64,000 nt of DNA from Halococcus agarilyticus. Its GTDB lineage: Archaea; Halobacteriota; Halobacteria; Halobacteriales; Halococcaceae. Shown piece by piece: positions 2,962 to 37,390 of this stretch. Each line of letters opens with the position of its first letter. Within the stretch, counting starts at the first letter, position 1. The position numbers were made by a program, and so were the translations under genes. The stretch is taken from positions 62,001 to 126,000 of the forward strand of contig NZ_BAFM01000012.1 of NCBI RefSeq assembly GCF_000334895.1, written 5' to 3'. Below the pieces are notes generated by a model, which was given only the letters and a program-made list of their open reading frames with translations, was not told where the DNA came from and made no database searches.

Positions 2962-3432
2962 ATGAGCGAGTCATCCCCGGTGGTGCGGCGGACGGAAGAC
3001 ATCGAGTACGAACCCGTCGATGCGGCCGACGGTCTCGAAAAAGGCGTGCTCGTCGACGAAAAACGCGGTGCGCCGAACTTCGCCATCCGGCGATTCACGC
3101 TCGAACCTGGGGGACGGGTCCCGAAACACACCAACGAGGTCGAACACGAGCAGTACGTCCTGAAGGGAGAGTACGTGGTCGGGATCAGCGAGGCGTCTTC
3201 GACGCCTCGGGCAGACGGCGACAGCGAGGCACGGTGTGCCTCGGGCCGTGCGAGCGGGCAAGGCCCGCGAGCAGAAGCCGTCGACGACGACGAGGAACAC
3301 GTCGTGAGCGCCGGCGACTCGCTGTTGATCCCGGCAGGAGCGGTCCACTGGTATCGCAACGAGGGAGACGAAGAGGGGGCGTTCATCTGCGCGGTGCCGA
3401 ACGGCGACGACGCGATCGAACTCGTCGAATAG
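2962..3432 (+). CDS. Cupin domain protein with an in-frame palindrome-bearing insert
   Basis: A 156-aa single-domain cupin. Likely metal ligands are His56 and His62 in the first cupin motif (KHTNEVEHEQYVLKGEY) and His129 in the second (PAGAVHWY). Cupins of this size are often sugar-binding or dioxygenase-like, and no specific reaction can be assigned. Residues about 76-106 form an odd low-complexity loop (STPRADGDSEARCASG and onward) between two beta strands. The DNA for this loop is three consecutive perfect hairpins with 3-nt loops (3190-3268), so it looks like an inserted repeat cluster that kept the frame. Removing it would give a normal-length small cupin. Confidence 0.85.
   Translation: MSESSPVVRRTEDIEYEPVDAADGLEKGVLVDEKRGAPNFAIRRFTLEPGGRVPKHTNEVEHEQYVLKGEYVVGISEASSTPRADGDSEARCASGRASGQGPRAEAVDDDEEHVVSAGDSLLIPAGAVHWYRNEGDEEGAFICAVPNGDDAIELVE
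3190..3268. repeat. Three tandem triloop palindromes inside the cupin gene
   Basis: GAGGCGTC-TTC-GACGCCTC (3190-3208), GAGGCAC-GGT-GTGCCTC (3226-3242) and GCGGGC-AAG-GCCCGC (3254-3268) are perfect stems of 8, 7 and 6 bp, each with a 3-nt loop. The third stem can extend across a GA/GA internal mismatch. They encode the non-conserved loop of the cupin. The same design recurs in ileS and at 20556-20704. Confidence 0.85.
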
Positions 3433-15428: not shown

Positions 15429-18400
15429 ATGAGCAGGTTCGAGGACGTCGCGGATCGGTACGATCCCGATGCGGTCGAGGAGCGGGTGTTCGATCACTGG
15501 GACGAGACCGACGCCTACCGGCAGACGAAGGAGCACCGCGCGGGCGAGGAGGCGTTCTTCTTCGTCGACGGCCCCCCCTACACTTCGGGTGCAGCTCATC
15601 TCGGCACGACGTGGAACAAGACGCTGAAGGACGCCTACATCCGGTATCACCGAATGCAGGGCTACGACGTGACCGATCGGCCCGGGTTCGACATGCACGG
15701 CCTCCCGATCGAGACGAAGGTCGAGGAGAACCTCGGCTTCGAGAACAAGAAGGACATCGAGGCGTTCGGGATGGAGCCGTTCATCGAGGAGTGCAAGACC
15801 TACGCCGAGGAGCAACTCGACGGTCTGCAGTCTGACTTCGAGTCGTTCGGCGTCTGGATGGACTGGGAGAACCCCTACAGAACCGTCTCCCCGGAGTACA
15901 TGGAGGCGGCGTGGTGGGGGTTCGCCCAGGCCGCAGACCGGGGTCTCGTCGAGCAGGGCAAACGTTCGATCACCCAGTGTCCGCGGTGTGAGACCGCGAT
16001 CGCGAAAAACGAGGTCGAGTACCACGAGGTCGAGGACCCCTCGATCTACGTGGAGTTCCCGCTCGCCGAGCAAGAGGGTAGCCTGGTGGCGTGGACGACC
16101 ACCCCGTGGACGGTCCCGGCGAACGCCTTCGTCGCGGTCGACGAGGACGTGACCTACCAGCGGGTTCGTGCCGAAAGAGGCGACGAGAGCGAGGTGCTCT
16201 ACCTCGCAGCCGACGTGGTCGAGGAGGTCCTGAAGAAGGGCCGGTACGGGGACTACGAGGTGCTCGACGAGTTCGCAGGCAGCGAGATGCTCGGCTGGGA
16301 GTACGATCACCCGCTGGCCGATGAAGTACCAAACCACCCCGACGGCGACGGTGCGGGGCAGGTGTATCACGCCGATTACGTCGAGGTCGACCGCACAGGT
16401 CTGGTCCACTCCGCGCCCGGCCACGGCCAGGAGGACTTCGAGCGGGGCGAGGAGCTCGGCCTCGACGTGTTCTGTCCAGTCGGGAGCGACGGCGTCTACA
16501 CCGACGAGGCAGGGAAGTACGCCGGCGAGTTCGTCCGCGACGCCAACGACGGTATCATCGCGGACCTCGACGAGAAGGGGCTGCTGCTCGCCGAGGAGAC
16601 CTACGCCCACGACTACGGCCAGTGCTGGCGGTGTGACACGGACATCGTGTTCCTCGCCACCGACCAGTGGTTCATCACGGTCACCGATATCAAGGACGAA
16701 CTGCTCGACAACATCGAGGACAGCGAGTGGCACCCTCCGGAAGCCCGTGACGAGCGCTTCCGCAACTTCGTCGAGGACTCGCCCGACTGGAACGTCTCCC
16801 GGCAGCGCTACTGGGGCATCCCCGTTCCGATCTGGACGCCCGAGGGCGACGAGGACCGCTCGGAGAGCGGAGCGACCGACGACGCCCGCGAGATGATCGT
16901 CGTCGGAACGCGCGAGGAGCTCGCCGAGCGCGCGGACCAGGACGTCGATCCCGAAGCGGTCGACCTCCATCGCCCCACTGTGGACGACCTGACGATCACC
17001 GAGGGCGGCACCACCTACACTCGGGTTCCGGACGTGTTCGACGTCTGGCTCGACTCGTCGGTGGCGTCGTGGGGCACGCTCGATTACCCCGGCGAGACCG
17101 AGGCCTTCGAGGAGCTCTGGCCCGCCGACCTCATCATGGAGGCCCACGACCAGACCCGCGGCTGGTTCTGGTCGCAGTTGGGAATGGGAACGGCAGCGCT
17201 CGGTGAGGTTCCCTACGACGAGGTGTTGATGCACGGCTACGCCAACATGCCCGACGGACGAGGCATGTCGAAGTCGAAGGGCATCACGATCGAGCCGGGC
17301 GAGATCGTCGAGCGCCACGGGGCCGACGCGATGCGGCTGTTCCTCCTCTCGGTCACGCCCCAGGGCGACGACATGCGCTTCTCGTGGGAGGAGACCGAGG
17401 AGATGGAGCGCACGCTCAACATCCTCTGGAACGTCTTCCGGTTCCCGCTCCCCTATATGCGCCTCGACGGGTTCGATCCGGGCGTTGCGCCGGAGGCGCA
17501 ACGAGGTGAAGGCGGTGAAACCGCCGGAGCGACGACGCTTGCGGACGTCGAGGGCGCGCTCGAACGCGAGGATCAGTGGGTGCTCTCGCGGCTTCAAACT
17601 GTGGAGGCGGAGATGGCCGACGCGTGGGCCGACTTCCGCCAGGACCGTGCGCTCGACGCTCTCCTCGATTTCGTCGTCGAGGACGTTTCCCGATTCTACG
17701 TCCAAGGCGTCCGCGAGCGGATGTGGGAGGAAGCCGACAGCGACTCGAAGCGCGCGGCGTACGCGACCTTTTACCGGGTACTGGAGGAGGTCGTCGCGCT
17801 GCTCGCGCCGTACGCACCGTTCGTCGCCGAGGAAATTTACACGACTCTCACCGGCGACGACGGGTTCGACACCGTCCACATGTGTGACTGGCCCGAGTCC
17901 GACGACGACCTCCGCGACCCCGACCTCGAACGCACGGTGGCGGTCGCGCGCGCGGTCGAGGAGGCCGGTTCGGCCGCCCGCCAGCAGGCAGAACGCAAGC
18001 TCCGGTGGCCCGTCACGCGGGTCGTGGTCGACGCCGAAAGCGAGGCGGTCGCGAGCGCGGTCGATGACCAGCGCGACCTCGTCGCCGATCGGCTGAACGC
18101 CCGCCGCGTCGAGCTGATCGACCCCGAAGATCGGTGGGACGAACTCGCCTACAGCGCCGAGGCCGACATGAGCTTACTCGGTCCGGAGTTCGGCGATCGC
18201 GCGGGCGACGTGATGACCGCGCTCAACGAGGCTCGGGTCGACGAACCCACCCTGTCGGCGCTCGAAACCGCCGTCGCGGACCGCCTCGACGATTCGGTCG
18301 ATCTCTCCGAGGAGATGGTGACGATCGTGACCGAGACCCCCGACGCGGTCGCCGCGGCCGGGTTCGACGAGGAGGGCGGCGGCACGGTCTACGTCGACAC

Positions 18401-20402: not shown

Positions 20403-20555
20403 GATCGAACACGACCGGCGACCGTCGAAAGCGTTCCGGCGTGCTGGCGAGCCGTGGATGGTGTGGCTGACGGCGATCCGATGGTTCCGACCGGCGAGAG
20501 CGACCGCCGCGCGTGGTGCGGTCTGCGGTGGCGGTGCCTGGCGAATGAAGGGCGA

Positions 20556-20572
20556 GGCGCGCTCCGCGCGCC
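20556..20572. repeat. Triloop palindrome GGCGCGC-TCC-GCGCGCC
   Basis: A perfect 7-bp stem with a 3-nt loop in the intergenic region upstream of the beta-propeller gene. It has the same design as those in the cupin gene and ileS. Confidence 0.85.
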
Positions 20573-20594
20573 GAGGGCTTCGGCGGTGCTGTGC

Positions 20595-20632
20595 GGTCGC
20601 GGAGAGGGGTAGCAATTCTACCGCGAGCGACC
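20595..20632. repeat. Nested dyad GGTCGC...GGTAG-CAATT-CTACC...GCGACC
   Basis: An outer 6-bp arm pair (20595-20600 and 20627-20632) encloses an inner perfect 5-bp stem with loop CAATT (20608-20622). It sits between the two triloop palindromes and is a candidate part of one composite repeat element. Confidence 0.7.
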
Positions 20633-20687
20633 GAAGGGAACGAGCGGATGTTTTTGATGCAGATTTTTGCGAGGAGAGGTGCCCGCA

Positions 20688-20704
20688 GCGCGCCGGAGGC
20701 GCGC
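20688..20704. repeat. Triloop palindrome GCGCGCC-GGA-GGCGCGC
   Basis: A perfect 7-bp stem with a GGA loop, 27 nt beyond the arginase stop codon. It may act as the arginase 3'-end hairpin as well as being a repeat-family member. Confidence 0.85.
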
Positions 20705-20731
20705 AAGGACACCCGACGAAGTAAAAAGGTG

Positions 20732-21643
20732 CTAGAGCACGCGCTTGCCGAGCGCGCTCGCGGCGAGTTCGACACCGAGTTCGGCGGTCTCGTTGTGCGA
20801 GTCGAGGATCGGGTTCGCCTCGACGAGTTCGAGCGAGCGGAGCACGCCGTCCTGGGTGTCGCGGTCGGCGACGGTTTCGAGCGCGGAGTGAGCCTCGCGG
20901 TAGGTGACGCCCCCTCTGACTGGGGTGCCGACGCCCGGCGCGTGGCTGGGATCGAGCCAGTCGAGATCGAGGCTGACGTGGATCCCGTCGACGCCGTCGG
21001 TGGCGACGTCGAGCGCCGCCTCGGTGATTTCCGTGACGCCGCGCTGGTCGATATCGGACATCGTGTAGGCCGTGATCTCGCTGTCGCGGATGCGCTCACG
21101 TTCGGGGTCGTCGACGCTCCGGAGGCCGACGAGTGCGACGTTTTCCTCGGACAGGTTTGGGGCGTTCGCCCACGGCGTGTCGGCGAACGTTCCCATCCCG
21201 AGCGCGGCCGCGAGCGGCATCCCGTGGACGTTGCCGGAGGGGGTCGTCTCGGGCGTGTTGACGTCGCTGTGGGCGTCGAACCAGATCGCGCCGATCTCCC
21301 GGTCGCGGGACGCGCCGGCCAGCGTGCCGATCGCGATCGAGTGATCCCCCCCGAGGACGAGCGGGAGCGCGCCGCCGTCGAGCGAGGAAGCGACCTCGTC
21401 GGCGAGTTTCGTACAGACCGACTCGACCTCGTCGAGATACTTCGCGTTGGCCTCGATCGACCTCGCCTCTGGGTCGCGCTCCTCGGCATGGGGAACCGTG
21501 AGATCGCCGGCATCGACACACGAGCGACCGATGTTCCCGAGCGTCGACGCGAGCCCGGCGTACCGGATCGCCGAGGGCCCCATGTCGACGCCCCGCCGGT
21601 CGGCTCCGAGATCCATCGGGACGCCGATCGTACTGATCGTCAT
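20732..21643 (-). CDS. rocF: Arginase (ureohydrolase family)
   Basis: A 303-aa ureohydrolase. The manganese ligands lie in GGDHSIAIG, FDAHSDVN and SLDLDWLDPSHAPG, all three signature motifs of the arginase/agmatinase fold. The region after DAHSD (TPETTPSGNVHG) and the final LDP...GTPVRGG motif favour arginase (arginine to ornithine plus urea) over agmatinase. The start at ATG 21643 has a TATA element about 26 nt upstream. It is divergent from a class III aminotransferase that could use ornithine, suggesting an arginine breakdown unit (inference). Confidence 0.9.
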   Translation of the reverse strand: MTISTIGVPMDLGADRRGVDMGPSAIRYAGLASTLGNIGRSCVDAGDLTVPHAEERDPEARSIEANAKYLDEVESVCTKLADEVASSLDGGALPLVLGGDHSIAIGTLAGASRDREIGAIWFDAHSDVNTPETTPSGNVHGMPLAAALGMGTFADTPWANAPNLSEENVALVGLRSVDDPERERIRDSEITAYTMSDIDQRGVTEITEAALDVATDGVDGIHVSLDLDWLDPSHAPGVGTPVRGGVTYREAHSALETVADRDTQDGVLRSLELVEANPILDSHNETAELGVELAASALGKRVL

Positions 21644-35113: not shown

Positions 35114-37390
35114 TCAGCGGACGGTATCGAGAATGAGCTTCTGCTCGACCCGCTTGACCTCGTGTTGCACGTCTCGAACGGCGTCGATGTTCGCCGAGAT
35201 CGAGGAGACGCCCTCGTTGACGAGGAAATCCACCATCTTCGATTTCGAGCCGGCCTGGCCACAGATGCTCGTCTCGACGTCGTGCTCGCGACAGGTCTCG
35301 ATCGTCTCGCCGATGAGTTCGAGCACCGCGGGGTGGAGCTCGTCGAACCGGTCGGCGACCTGGCCGTTGTTGCGGTCCACGGCGAGGGTGTACTGGGTGA
35401 GATCGTTGGTGCCGAAGGAGGCGAAGTCGATGCCGGCCTTTGCCATCTCGCCGACGCACAGCGCGCTCGCGGGCGTCTCGATCATCACGCCCCACGACCG
35501 CTTGTCGATGTCGATGCCCGCCTCCTCCATCAGATCGCGTGCCCGCCGGACGTCCTCGACGTCGTTCACGAGCGGGAACATGATCTCGACGTTGTCGTAG
35601 CCCATCTCGTACAGCCGCCGGAACGCTTCGAGTTCGTGGACGAACACCTCGGGCGTGTCGAGGCTCCGGCGGATGCCCCGATACCCGAGCATGGGGTTGT
35701 GTTCATCGGGTTCGTCGCCGCCGCCCTGGAGCTGGCGGAACTCGTCCGTGGGTGCGTCGAGCGTGCGCACTCTCACTGGTCGAGGGTAGAACTCGTCGGC
35801 CGAGCGCCGGACGCCCTCGACGATCTCCTCGATGTAGGCGTCCTCGCCGTGGTCAGCGATGTACTTCTGTGGGGTCTTGTTCGTCGAGAGGATCATGTGC
35901 TCCAGTCGGAGAAGCCCCACTCCGTCGGCCCCCGTCGCGGCCGCGCGTTCCGCAGCTTCAGGAATCGAGACGTTGACCTTCACTTCGGTCGCGGTCATCG
36001 GTTTGACCGGGGATTGCGGGCGGACCTCCTCGACGGCGTCGCGCTCGCCGTCGGTCGTCCGGCCCTCGCGGATCGTCCCCTTGTCGCCGTCGATCGTGAC
36101 GAGCTGGCCGTCCTCTAGAGTACCAGTCGCGCTCTGGGAGCCCACTACGGCAGGGACGCCGAGTTCGCGCGAGACGATGGCGGCGTGGGAGGTCATCCCG
36201 CCCTCGTCGGTCACGATGCCGCCCGCGCGCTTCATCGCGGGCACCATGTCGGGCGTGGTCATCTCGGTCACGATGAGGTCGCCCTCCTCGACCTTGTCGA
36301 GTTGGTCGAGCCGCTCGACCAGGCGAACCGGACCGCTCGCCACGCCGGGACTCGCACCGAGTCCGGTCAGAATGACTTCCTCGGCCGTCGTGTCGTCGGC
36401 ACCGCTGCCGTCCGCGACGCCCGTTTCGGCCCCGGCTCCCGCGTCGGCTTCGGTGATCGTCGTGATCGGCCGCGACTGGAGCATGAACACCTCGCCGTCT
36501 ACAATTGCCCACTCCACGTCCTGGGGCTCGCCGTAGTGGTCCTCGACGCGCTCGCCGAGCTCGACTAGCCTGTCGATCTCGCTCTCGTCGAGCACCTGGG
36601 CGGTGCGTTTGTCCTCGGGAACGCCCTCCGAGACGGTTTCGCCGGTCTCGCTTTTGACGTACATCGTGTTCTTCTCGGCGACCGTCACGGAGTCGAGGTC
36701 GCCGCTCGCCCGATCGATCACGTAGTTGTCGGGCGAGACCTCGCCCGCCACGACCGCCTCGCCGAGCCCCCACGCGGCCTCGATGATGAGCTCGTCCTCG
36801 CCGGTCGAGGGATGGGAGGTGAACATCACGCCCGACTTCTCGGCGTCGACCATCCGCTGGACGACCACCGCGATGTCCACTTTTTCGTGATCGAACCCCT
36901 GCTGTTCGCGGTAGTAGATCGCCCGCTGGGTGAACAGCGACGCCCAGCACTCCCGGACCCGCTCGACGAGATCCTCCTCGGTGACATTGAGGAACGTCTC
37001 CTGCTGGCCCGCGAAGGAAGCGTCCGGGAGGTCCTCGGCGGTGGCCGAGGAGCGCACCGCGACGAACGCCTCCCCGTCGTCGAGATTGCCGTAGGTTTCG
37101 ACGATCTCCTCGCGGAGGTCGGCGGGCATCTCGGTGTCGAGGATGAGCTCCTCGGCGCGGGCCTGGGCCTCCGCGAGCGCGGCCGAGTCGTCGGGGTCGA
37201 CGTCGACCGCCTCGAACAGTGCCTCGTCGATCCCGGTCTCCTCGATGAACGAGCGGTAGGTTCCCGCGGTGACGACGAACGCGGGCGGCACGGGCAGTCC
37301 GGCACCGGCGAGTTCGCCGAGCGACGCGCCCTTGCCGCCGACGTCGCCGATGTCGTCCTTTCCGACCTCGTCCAGCCAGAGTACGGCCAT
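35114..37390 (-). CDS. ppsA: Phosphoenolpyruvate synthase (pyruvate, water dikinase)
   Basis: A 758-aa protein with the three-domain layout of PEP synthase. The N-terminal ATP-grasp domain is about 1-330 (VGGKGASLGELAGAGLPVP). The swivelling phosphohistidine domain has His402 in GGMTSHAAIVSRE. The C-terminal PEP/pyruvate TIM barrel is about 470-750 (FGTNDLTQYTLAVDRNNG). It makes PEP from pyruvate, ATP and water for gluconeogenesis. A TATA-like element lies about 26 nt before ATG 37390. The frameshifted phzF gene lies 113 nt upstream. Confidence 0.96.
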   Translation of the reverse strand: MAVLWLDEVGKDDIGDVGGKGASLGELAGAGLPVPPAFVVTAGTYRSFIEETGIDEALFEAVDVDPDDSAALAEAQARAEELILDTEMPADLREEIVETYGNLDDGEAFVAVRSSATAEDLPDASFAGQQETFLNVTEEDLVERVRECWASLFTQRAIYYREQQGFDHEKVDIAVVVQRMVDAEKSGVMFTSHPSTGEDELIIEAAWGLGEAVVAGEVSPDNYVIDRASGDLDSVTVAEKNTMYVKSETGETVSEGVPEDKRTAQVLDESEIDRLVELGERVEDHYGEPQDVEWAIVDGEVFMLQSRPITTITEADAGAGAETGVADGSGADDTTAEEVILTGLGASPGVASGPVRLVERLDQLDKVEEGDLIVTEMTTPDMVPAMKRAGGIVTDEGGMTSHAAIVSRELGVPAVVGSQSATGTLEDGQLVTIDGDKGTIREGRTTDGERDAVEEVRPQSPVKPMTATEVKVNVSIPEAAERAAATGADGVGLLRLEHMILSTNKTPQKYIADHGEDAYIEEIVEGVRRSADEFYPRPVRVRTLDAPTDEFRQLQGGGDEPDEHNPMLGYRGIRRSLDTPEVFVHELEAFRRLYEMGYDNVEIMFPLVNDVEDVRRARDLMEEAGIDIDKRSWGVMIETPASALCVGEMAKAGIDFASFGTNDLTQYTLAVDRNNGQVADRFDELHPAVLELIGETIETCREHDVETSICGQAGSKSKMVDFLVNEGVSSISANIDAVRDVQHEVKRVEQKLILDTVR

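Follow-up and report, generated by a model that had tools for sequence, protein, structure and literature searches.

Palindromic inserts kept in frame in a cupin gene of Halococcus agarilyticus and in other haloarchaeal genes

A small cupin gene of Halococcus agarilyticus contains a cluster of triloop hairpins that is very probably a copy of a dispersed palindromic element of the haloarchaea, one that enters genes and persists where its insertion is in frame. Copies of this element are dispersed, occur as exact in-frame insertions opposite empty alleles, use a single reading frame, and have arms that covary and stems that are conserved while the loops change. The family is spread across the haloarchaea; until now, palindromes that encode protein had been known mostly from Rickettsia.

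The cupin gene and its hairpins

The cluster lies in a window (the whole stretch of DNA that was analysed) of 64,000 nt, whose relevant features are listed here.

2962..3432, + strand: Cupin_2 host gene, 156 aa (PF07883, E 7.9e-16)
3187..3282, + strand: palindromic insert in frame, 96 nt, missing in most relatives (protein junction 76/109-110)
3189..3209, + strand: hairpin 1 (hp1), perfect 9-bp stem CGAGGCGTC-TTC-GACGCCTCG
3214..3219, + strand: outer stem, left arm GACGGC; in G039 this stem holds no insertion and its loop is GAA
3222..3276, + strand: family unit hpA + hpB (hp2+hp3), covariance model R2, positions 1-55 of 55
3225..3243, + strand: hairpin 2 (hp2, hpA of the unit), perfect 8-bp stem CGAGGCAC-GGT-GTGCCTCG
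3249..3273, + strand: hairpin 3 (hp3, hpB of the unit), extended, TGC-GA-GCGGGC-AAG-GCCCGC-GA-GCA, with a tandem G.A mismatch
3254..3268, + strand: inner perfect stem of hairpin 3, 6 bp, GCGGGC-AAG-GCCCGC
3277..3282, + strand: outer stem, right arm GCCGTC, pairing with GACGGC at 3214-3219
17481..17528, + strand: second in-frame two-hairpin insert of the window, in the isoleucyl-tRNA synthetase gene (IleRS; gene named from sequence)
20547..20735, strand not given: composite repeat of hairpins, intergenic, arms TTTTTGCGAG ... AAGTAAAAAGG, read by eye

The initial annotation had described three perfect stems with 3-nt loops, side by side and in frame in a cupin gene, and this was borne out at 3189-3268: all three hairpins have perfect stems and a triloop each within the 156-aa ORF, and the outer stem GACGGC/GCCGTC encloses hp2 and hp3. 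The region had a fold z of -3.06 as RNA and -3.08 as DNA. When the same 31 residues were synonymously recoded, none of 50,000 recodings reached the observed stems, and three triloop stems of any kind arose in 18 of 50,000. Using covariance model R2, built only from other haloarchaeal copies, the cupin copy at 3222-3276 was the sole strong match in the 64-kb window (68.8 bits, E 1e-15). The only other cluster of three triloop stems in the window, at 36287-36364, had no match to the family model.

The suggestion that relatives' cupins lack residues ~76-106 held when the alignment was run, since among the 44 genomes with a cupin match most matched in two protein segments that meet at residues 76 and 109-110. 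G002 encodes a short cupin with no insert, and the H. agarilyticus gene is 99 nt longer than this empty allele, while the same-genus G008 also carries the insert (~90% protein identity). A shorter form occupies the same site in G007, from the same genus, and in G039, from another family; there GAA alone forms the loop of the outer stem (GGCGGT-GAA-ACCGCC and GACGGC-GAA-GCCGTC). Cupins of distant genera with the same residues over non-palindromic DNA, on whose absence the initial reading had been staked, were not found, and the insert of G039 is palindromic. In G000 and G008 the hp2+hp3 unit lies within the loop of the short-form hairpin, and the same composite, GACGGCGA-unit-AGAAGCCGTC, recurs in the H. 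agarilyticus genome at C2:258346 and C1:194117. The cupin composite may therefore have arrived whole, or it may have been built in two steps; its unit occupies the loop of GACGGC-GAA-GCCGTC. Elsewhere, at L001 1547-1611 and L002 1518-1582, the nested composite is inverted relative to its outer flanks, which suggests inversion between palindromic arms.

The initial annotation had also supposed a tolerated protein linker. In the AlphaFold2 model, pLDDT fell below 50 exactly at residues 79-107, although these low values may partly stem from the few sequences aligned there, and the flanking strands 70-76 and 111-116 were the two strands of a beta hairpin around the insert. The insert is thus predicted to be a disordered loop, as expected for a linker.

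The element across the haloarchaea

The family unit of ~50 nt (48-54 bp within genes) consists of hpA (8-bp stem, triloop), a 5-nt spacer, and hpB (6-bp stem, triloop, tandem G.A). A genome search for related units, proposed in the initial annotation, found them recurring across the genome and the order. In H. agarilyticus, where copies were counted by model and pattern searches, there were ~17 recognisable dispersed copies by DNA search, ~46 covariance-model matches at E up to 0.01, and 19 strong copies. Both intergenic and coding copies were present, and most of the 30 best matches had no clear coding frame. Repeated intergenic stretches around these copies span ~120-300 nt. An autonomous parent element was considered and rejected, since the long repeats shared between copies end by ~300 nt. 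The window's repeat at 20547-20735 is like the larger intergenic copies elsewhere in this genome.

Family copies were found in 10 of 10 genomes of the genus. With R2, the second covariance model, built only from named haloarchaeal copies, strong matches (E 1e-8 or better) were obtained for 126 of the 195 genomes sampled in the order, representing 45 of 66 genera. In a sample of 148 genomes of the phylum, 10 matched, all within the order, and no match was found outside it. The exact hpB pattern, searched in 84,980 species, gave 74 loci, 72 under haloarchaeal names and two in 'Euryarchaeota archaeon B79T1B8' (MAG). Twelve records of the plasmid collection held the element, all of them haloarchaeal, and the phage and viral collections gave no match. 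An Rfam 15 scan at the gathering threshold returned tRNA only and no family for the hairpins, and the insert peptide had no match in solved structures. In the open-access literature, we found no archaeal description of such coding palindromes.

By codon-position G+C, 53 of the 74 exact-pattern loci scored as coding, and 50 of these 53 shared one frame and strand (binomial P = 1.7e-35 against 1/6). Among the three exceptions, L143 at least appears to be mis-scored, as its sense frame resembles the L136 helicase. None of the six frames of the consensus contains a stop. The one in use encodes the peptide SAExSSADxSSGxSPRED, with net charge 0 and the lowest GRAVY (most hydrophilic), and the other five, all less hydrophilic, are basic (+2 to +6). 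Use of one frame would fit random insertion followed by selection within an acidic halophile proteome. Insertion sites are codons for D/G/E-rich turns. Host genes identified by HMM or annotation included oligoendopeptidase F, A-type ATP synthase B (AtpB), GatE (twice), thioredoxin reductase, a Rad3-type helicase, AlaRS, SufD, MetRS, GyrB, iPGM, S-adenosylmethionine synthetase, an eIF2-gamma-type GTPase, QueC, a PurL-type protein, MoeA, a class I tRNA synthetase, MerA, and CobN; ELP3, MoaA, FBPase, SBP56, TopA, and others were assigned from reading the flanks. That so many hosts are essential genes suggests that the inserts are translated.

Filled and empty sites, and the palindrome at the DNA level

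Palindromic inserts that keep the frame, as the initial annotation had remarked for the cupin, proved to be present in many more genes whose counterparts in sister genomes are cleanly empty. Comparison within the genus gave exact insertions of 16-18 codons, and one longer, opposite such empty alleles.

GatE site 1: 17 codons, filled in G000 and G004 only
GatE site 2: 18 codons, filled in G000 and G006
SBP56: 17 codons, filled in G000 and G008
FBPase: 17 codons, filled in G005 and G007
ELP3: 17 codons, filled in G002
M28: 16 codons, filled in G005 and G007
CBS: 16 codons, filled in G005 and G007
MoaA: longer insertion of 34 codons, filled in G008

The IleRS insert of the window, with stems CGTTGCGCC-GGA-GGCGCAACG and GGCGGT-GAA-ACCGCC, was found among the ten genus genomes only in G000 and G007, and in G007 the second stem is changed on both sides (GGCGGT/ACCGCC to GGCGGC/GCCGCC), a compensatory change. 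This insert also resembles the short form of the G039 cupin. In MerA, a 54-nt insert is filled at the same codon in Halorussus, Salinirubellus, Salinigranum, Natrinema, Halomarina, Halovivax, and Halobellus (plasmids or genomes), and 28 sampled genomes are empty at the site. With haloarchaeal plasmids (L112, L308-L311) included, no fewer than seven genera carry the insert at this mercury reductase site. Patchy presence at identical sites (GatE site 1, IleRS, MerA) may reflect target preference, recombination between lineages, or loss; for GatE site 1 and MerA, recombination or loss could stand in place of fresh insertion. The FBPase insert (L206, L207) lies between 9-bp repeats, GACGGCGAG twice in G005 and GACAGCGAG twice in G007, with the same A/G difference on both sides of the insert.

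Across 60 copies the arms covary, with 55 double-changed cells compared with 13.2 in shuffles (0 of 500), and since hpA is absent from the scan pattern, its pairing is independent evidence. Paired synonymous codons were GAG/AGC in 19 cases, GAG/AGT in 1, GAA/AGC in 0, and GAA/AGT in 10 (Fisher P = 3.7e-7, a value inflated by copies related by descent), and this covariation is beyond what protein constraint could produce. At five orthologous coding sites, the stems showed 0 changes in 156 positions, as against 181 of 1554 in the flanks (P = 2.4e-8) and 10 of 33 in the loops. The GatE site 1 copies may be two independent insertions, and with this site left out the stem-flank comparison gave P = 2.2e-5. 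The loop of cupin hp1 is TTC in H. agarilyticus and its reverse complement GAA in the sister genome G008 (L021/L022), and the same exchange is seen at GatE site 1 (L195/L197), the stems being identical in both cases. Perfect stems persisting while loops invert would be predicted by template switching at hairpins, judging from few pairs. Stems have decayed at some sites, namely CBS, M28, and some MerA; those of CBS and M28 are already imperfect and drifting (~4 changes in 54 sites by hand count; P = 0.004 vs. the perfect stems).

Possible routes of spread and known systems

Could the palindromes be a by-product of codon bias in an ordinary low-complexity, hydrophilic halophile loop? High G+C and biased codon use speak for it, but its probability is practically negligible, and this origin was rejected as contradicted by the recoding test, by the covariation of paired synonymous sites between arms, and by the dispersal of homologous copies. 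It is also quite improbable that the hairpins are functional RNA or DNA signals (for pausing, stability, or protein binding) under selection, their coding role being incidental. Stems more conserved than flanks, the tandem G.A conserved in hpB, and the existence of intergenic copies would suit such signals; presence and absence at the same site among sister genomes, essential genes included, use of a single reading frame, stem decay at some sites, and the lack of an Rfam family at the gathering threshold argue against them.

Two further accounts concern how copies move. Mobilisation of a REP-type sequence by a RAYT/IS200-type Y1 transposase acting on a GTAG-tagged hairpin draws on the GTAG found directly 5' of hpA in 26 of the 74 pattern loci (ATAG in 14, others variable) and at most H. 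agarilyticus intergenic copies looked at, on the fact that bacterial GTAG-tagged REPs can be intragenic (PMC3733652), and on the lack of a consistent target-site duplication at empty/filled sites (MerA and SBP56 have none, FBPase being the exception). Nevertheless, we consider it unlikely, as Y1_Tnp (PF01797) is absent from the H. agarilyticus genome despite its 19 strong copies, no association between Y1_Tnp and the element was seen across 195 genomes (71/55/43/26, P = 0.45), and the long repeats around its copies stop within ~300 nt. It is possible, if rather doubtful, that no dedicated transposase is involved and that copies spread in polyploid cells by template switching during replication or by gene conversion from one hairpin to another. 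Inverting loops on unchanged stems, hairpin units nested in the loop of another, and the missing Y1 enzyme point towards it, and template switching has been proposed for the coding palindromes of nematomorph mitochondria (PMC6649704). Against this, a discrete 48-54-nt unit at unrelated sites exceeds in-place repair, orthologous pairs are few, and Y1 was the one transposase family tested.

We favor a dispersed element that inserts into genes. Its unit would enter at codons for D/G/E-rich turns and persist if it landed in frame; all six frames are open, yet proteins contain almost exclusively copies read in the neutral, hydrophilic frame, which would form a disordered loop. Copies would be spread by an active copying process, template switching at hairpins would account for loop inversion and stem perfection, and the peptide is probably translated and tolerated rather than useful. 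As for the mobile or self-spreading element of the initial annotation, presence/absence patterns are the basis for it, and no transposase or transposition product was identified. The lack of a mobilising enzyme and of a consistent target-site duplication counts against the favored account, as do the same-site patchiness and the stem decay noted above. More tentatively, and as a plausible reading that falls short of probable, these may be coding palindromes that perfect themselves and extend across the order: a DNA unit of two hairpins would enter essential genes in a single frame, keep its stems perfect while template switching flips the loops, and time and again give core enzymes new disordered loops, no classical transposase being involved.

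Rickettsia reportedly carries palindromic elements (RPE-1 and others). These are one longer palindrome, compared with the two-hairpin unit of ~50 nt described here. Like them, the haloarchaeal repeats are palindromic, lie in frame within many protein genes, are lacking in relatives, and are tolerated by the protein, and such inserts, missing in relatives, were found in conserved proteins (cupin, GatE, MerA, IleRS, and others); unlike them, they are archaeal and G+C-rich, have two triloop hairpins, and use a single frame across an entire order. The Rickettsia comparison made in the initial annotation thus stands for the mode of working, and the likeness appears to be analogy only, common descent being unlikely because the matches are order-specific. 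A study of nematomorph mitochondria (PMC6649704) cites Ogata et al. (2000, 2002) for the Rickettsia elements. The coding palindromes of that study are similarly perfect inverted repeats in genes with arms changing together; however, their arms, of up to 142 bp, encode conserved protein regions, whereas the haloarchaeal repeats belong to a dispersed family and are insertions added to their host genes. Intragenic GTAG/CGTC REPs of bacteria (Di Nocera et al., 2013; PMC3733652), in a text that makes no mention of haloarchaea, are likewise short palindromes, many intergenic and some intragenic, with GTAG at the hairpin foot as in part of the haloarchaeal copies, but the H. agarilyticus genome has no RAYT/Y1 gene, there is no Y1 correlation, and GTAG is not universal. 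Prokaryotic MITEs (reviewed in PMC10969869) are also small, non-autonomous repeats; here, in contrast, no architecture of terminal inverted repeats with target duplication was found, and inserts stay in frame in genes.

Protein-coding palindromes have so far been described as a peculiarity of Rickettsia. The haloarchaea, free-living and in part cultivable, offer a large and clean system in which housekeeping genes exist as both empty and filled alleles. For annotators and structural biologists there is a caution in this, as some haloarchaeal 'insertions' are repetitive DNA in origin. The system opens to direct study how such elements move, why copies survive in a single frame, how an enzyme is affected by the extra loop, and whether template switching is what keeps hairpins perfect.
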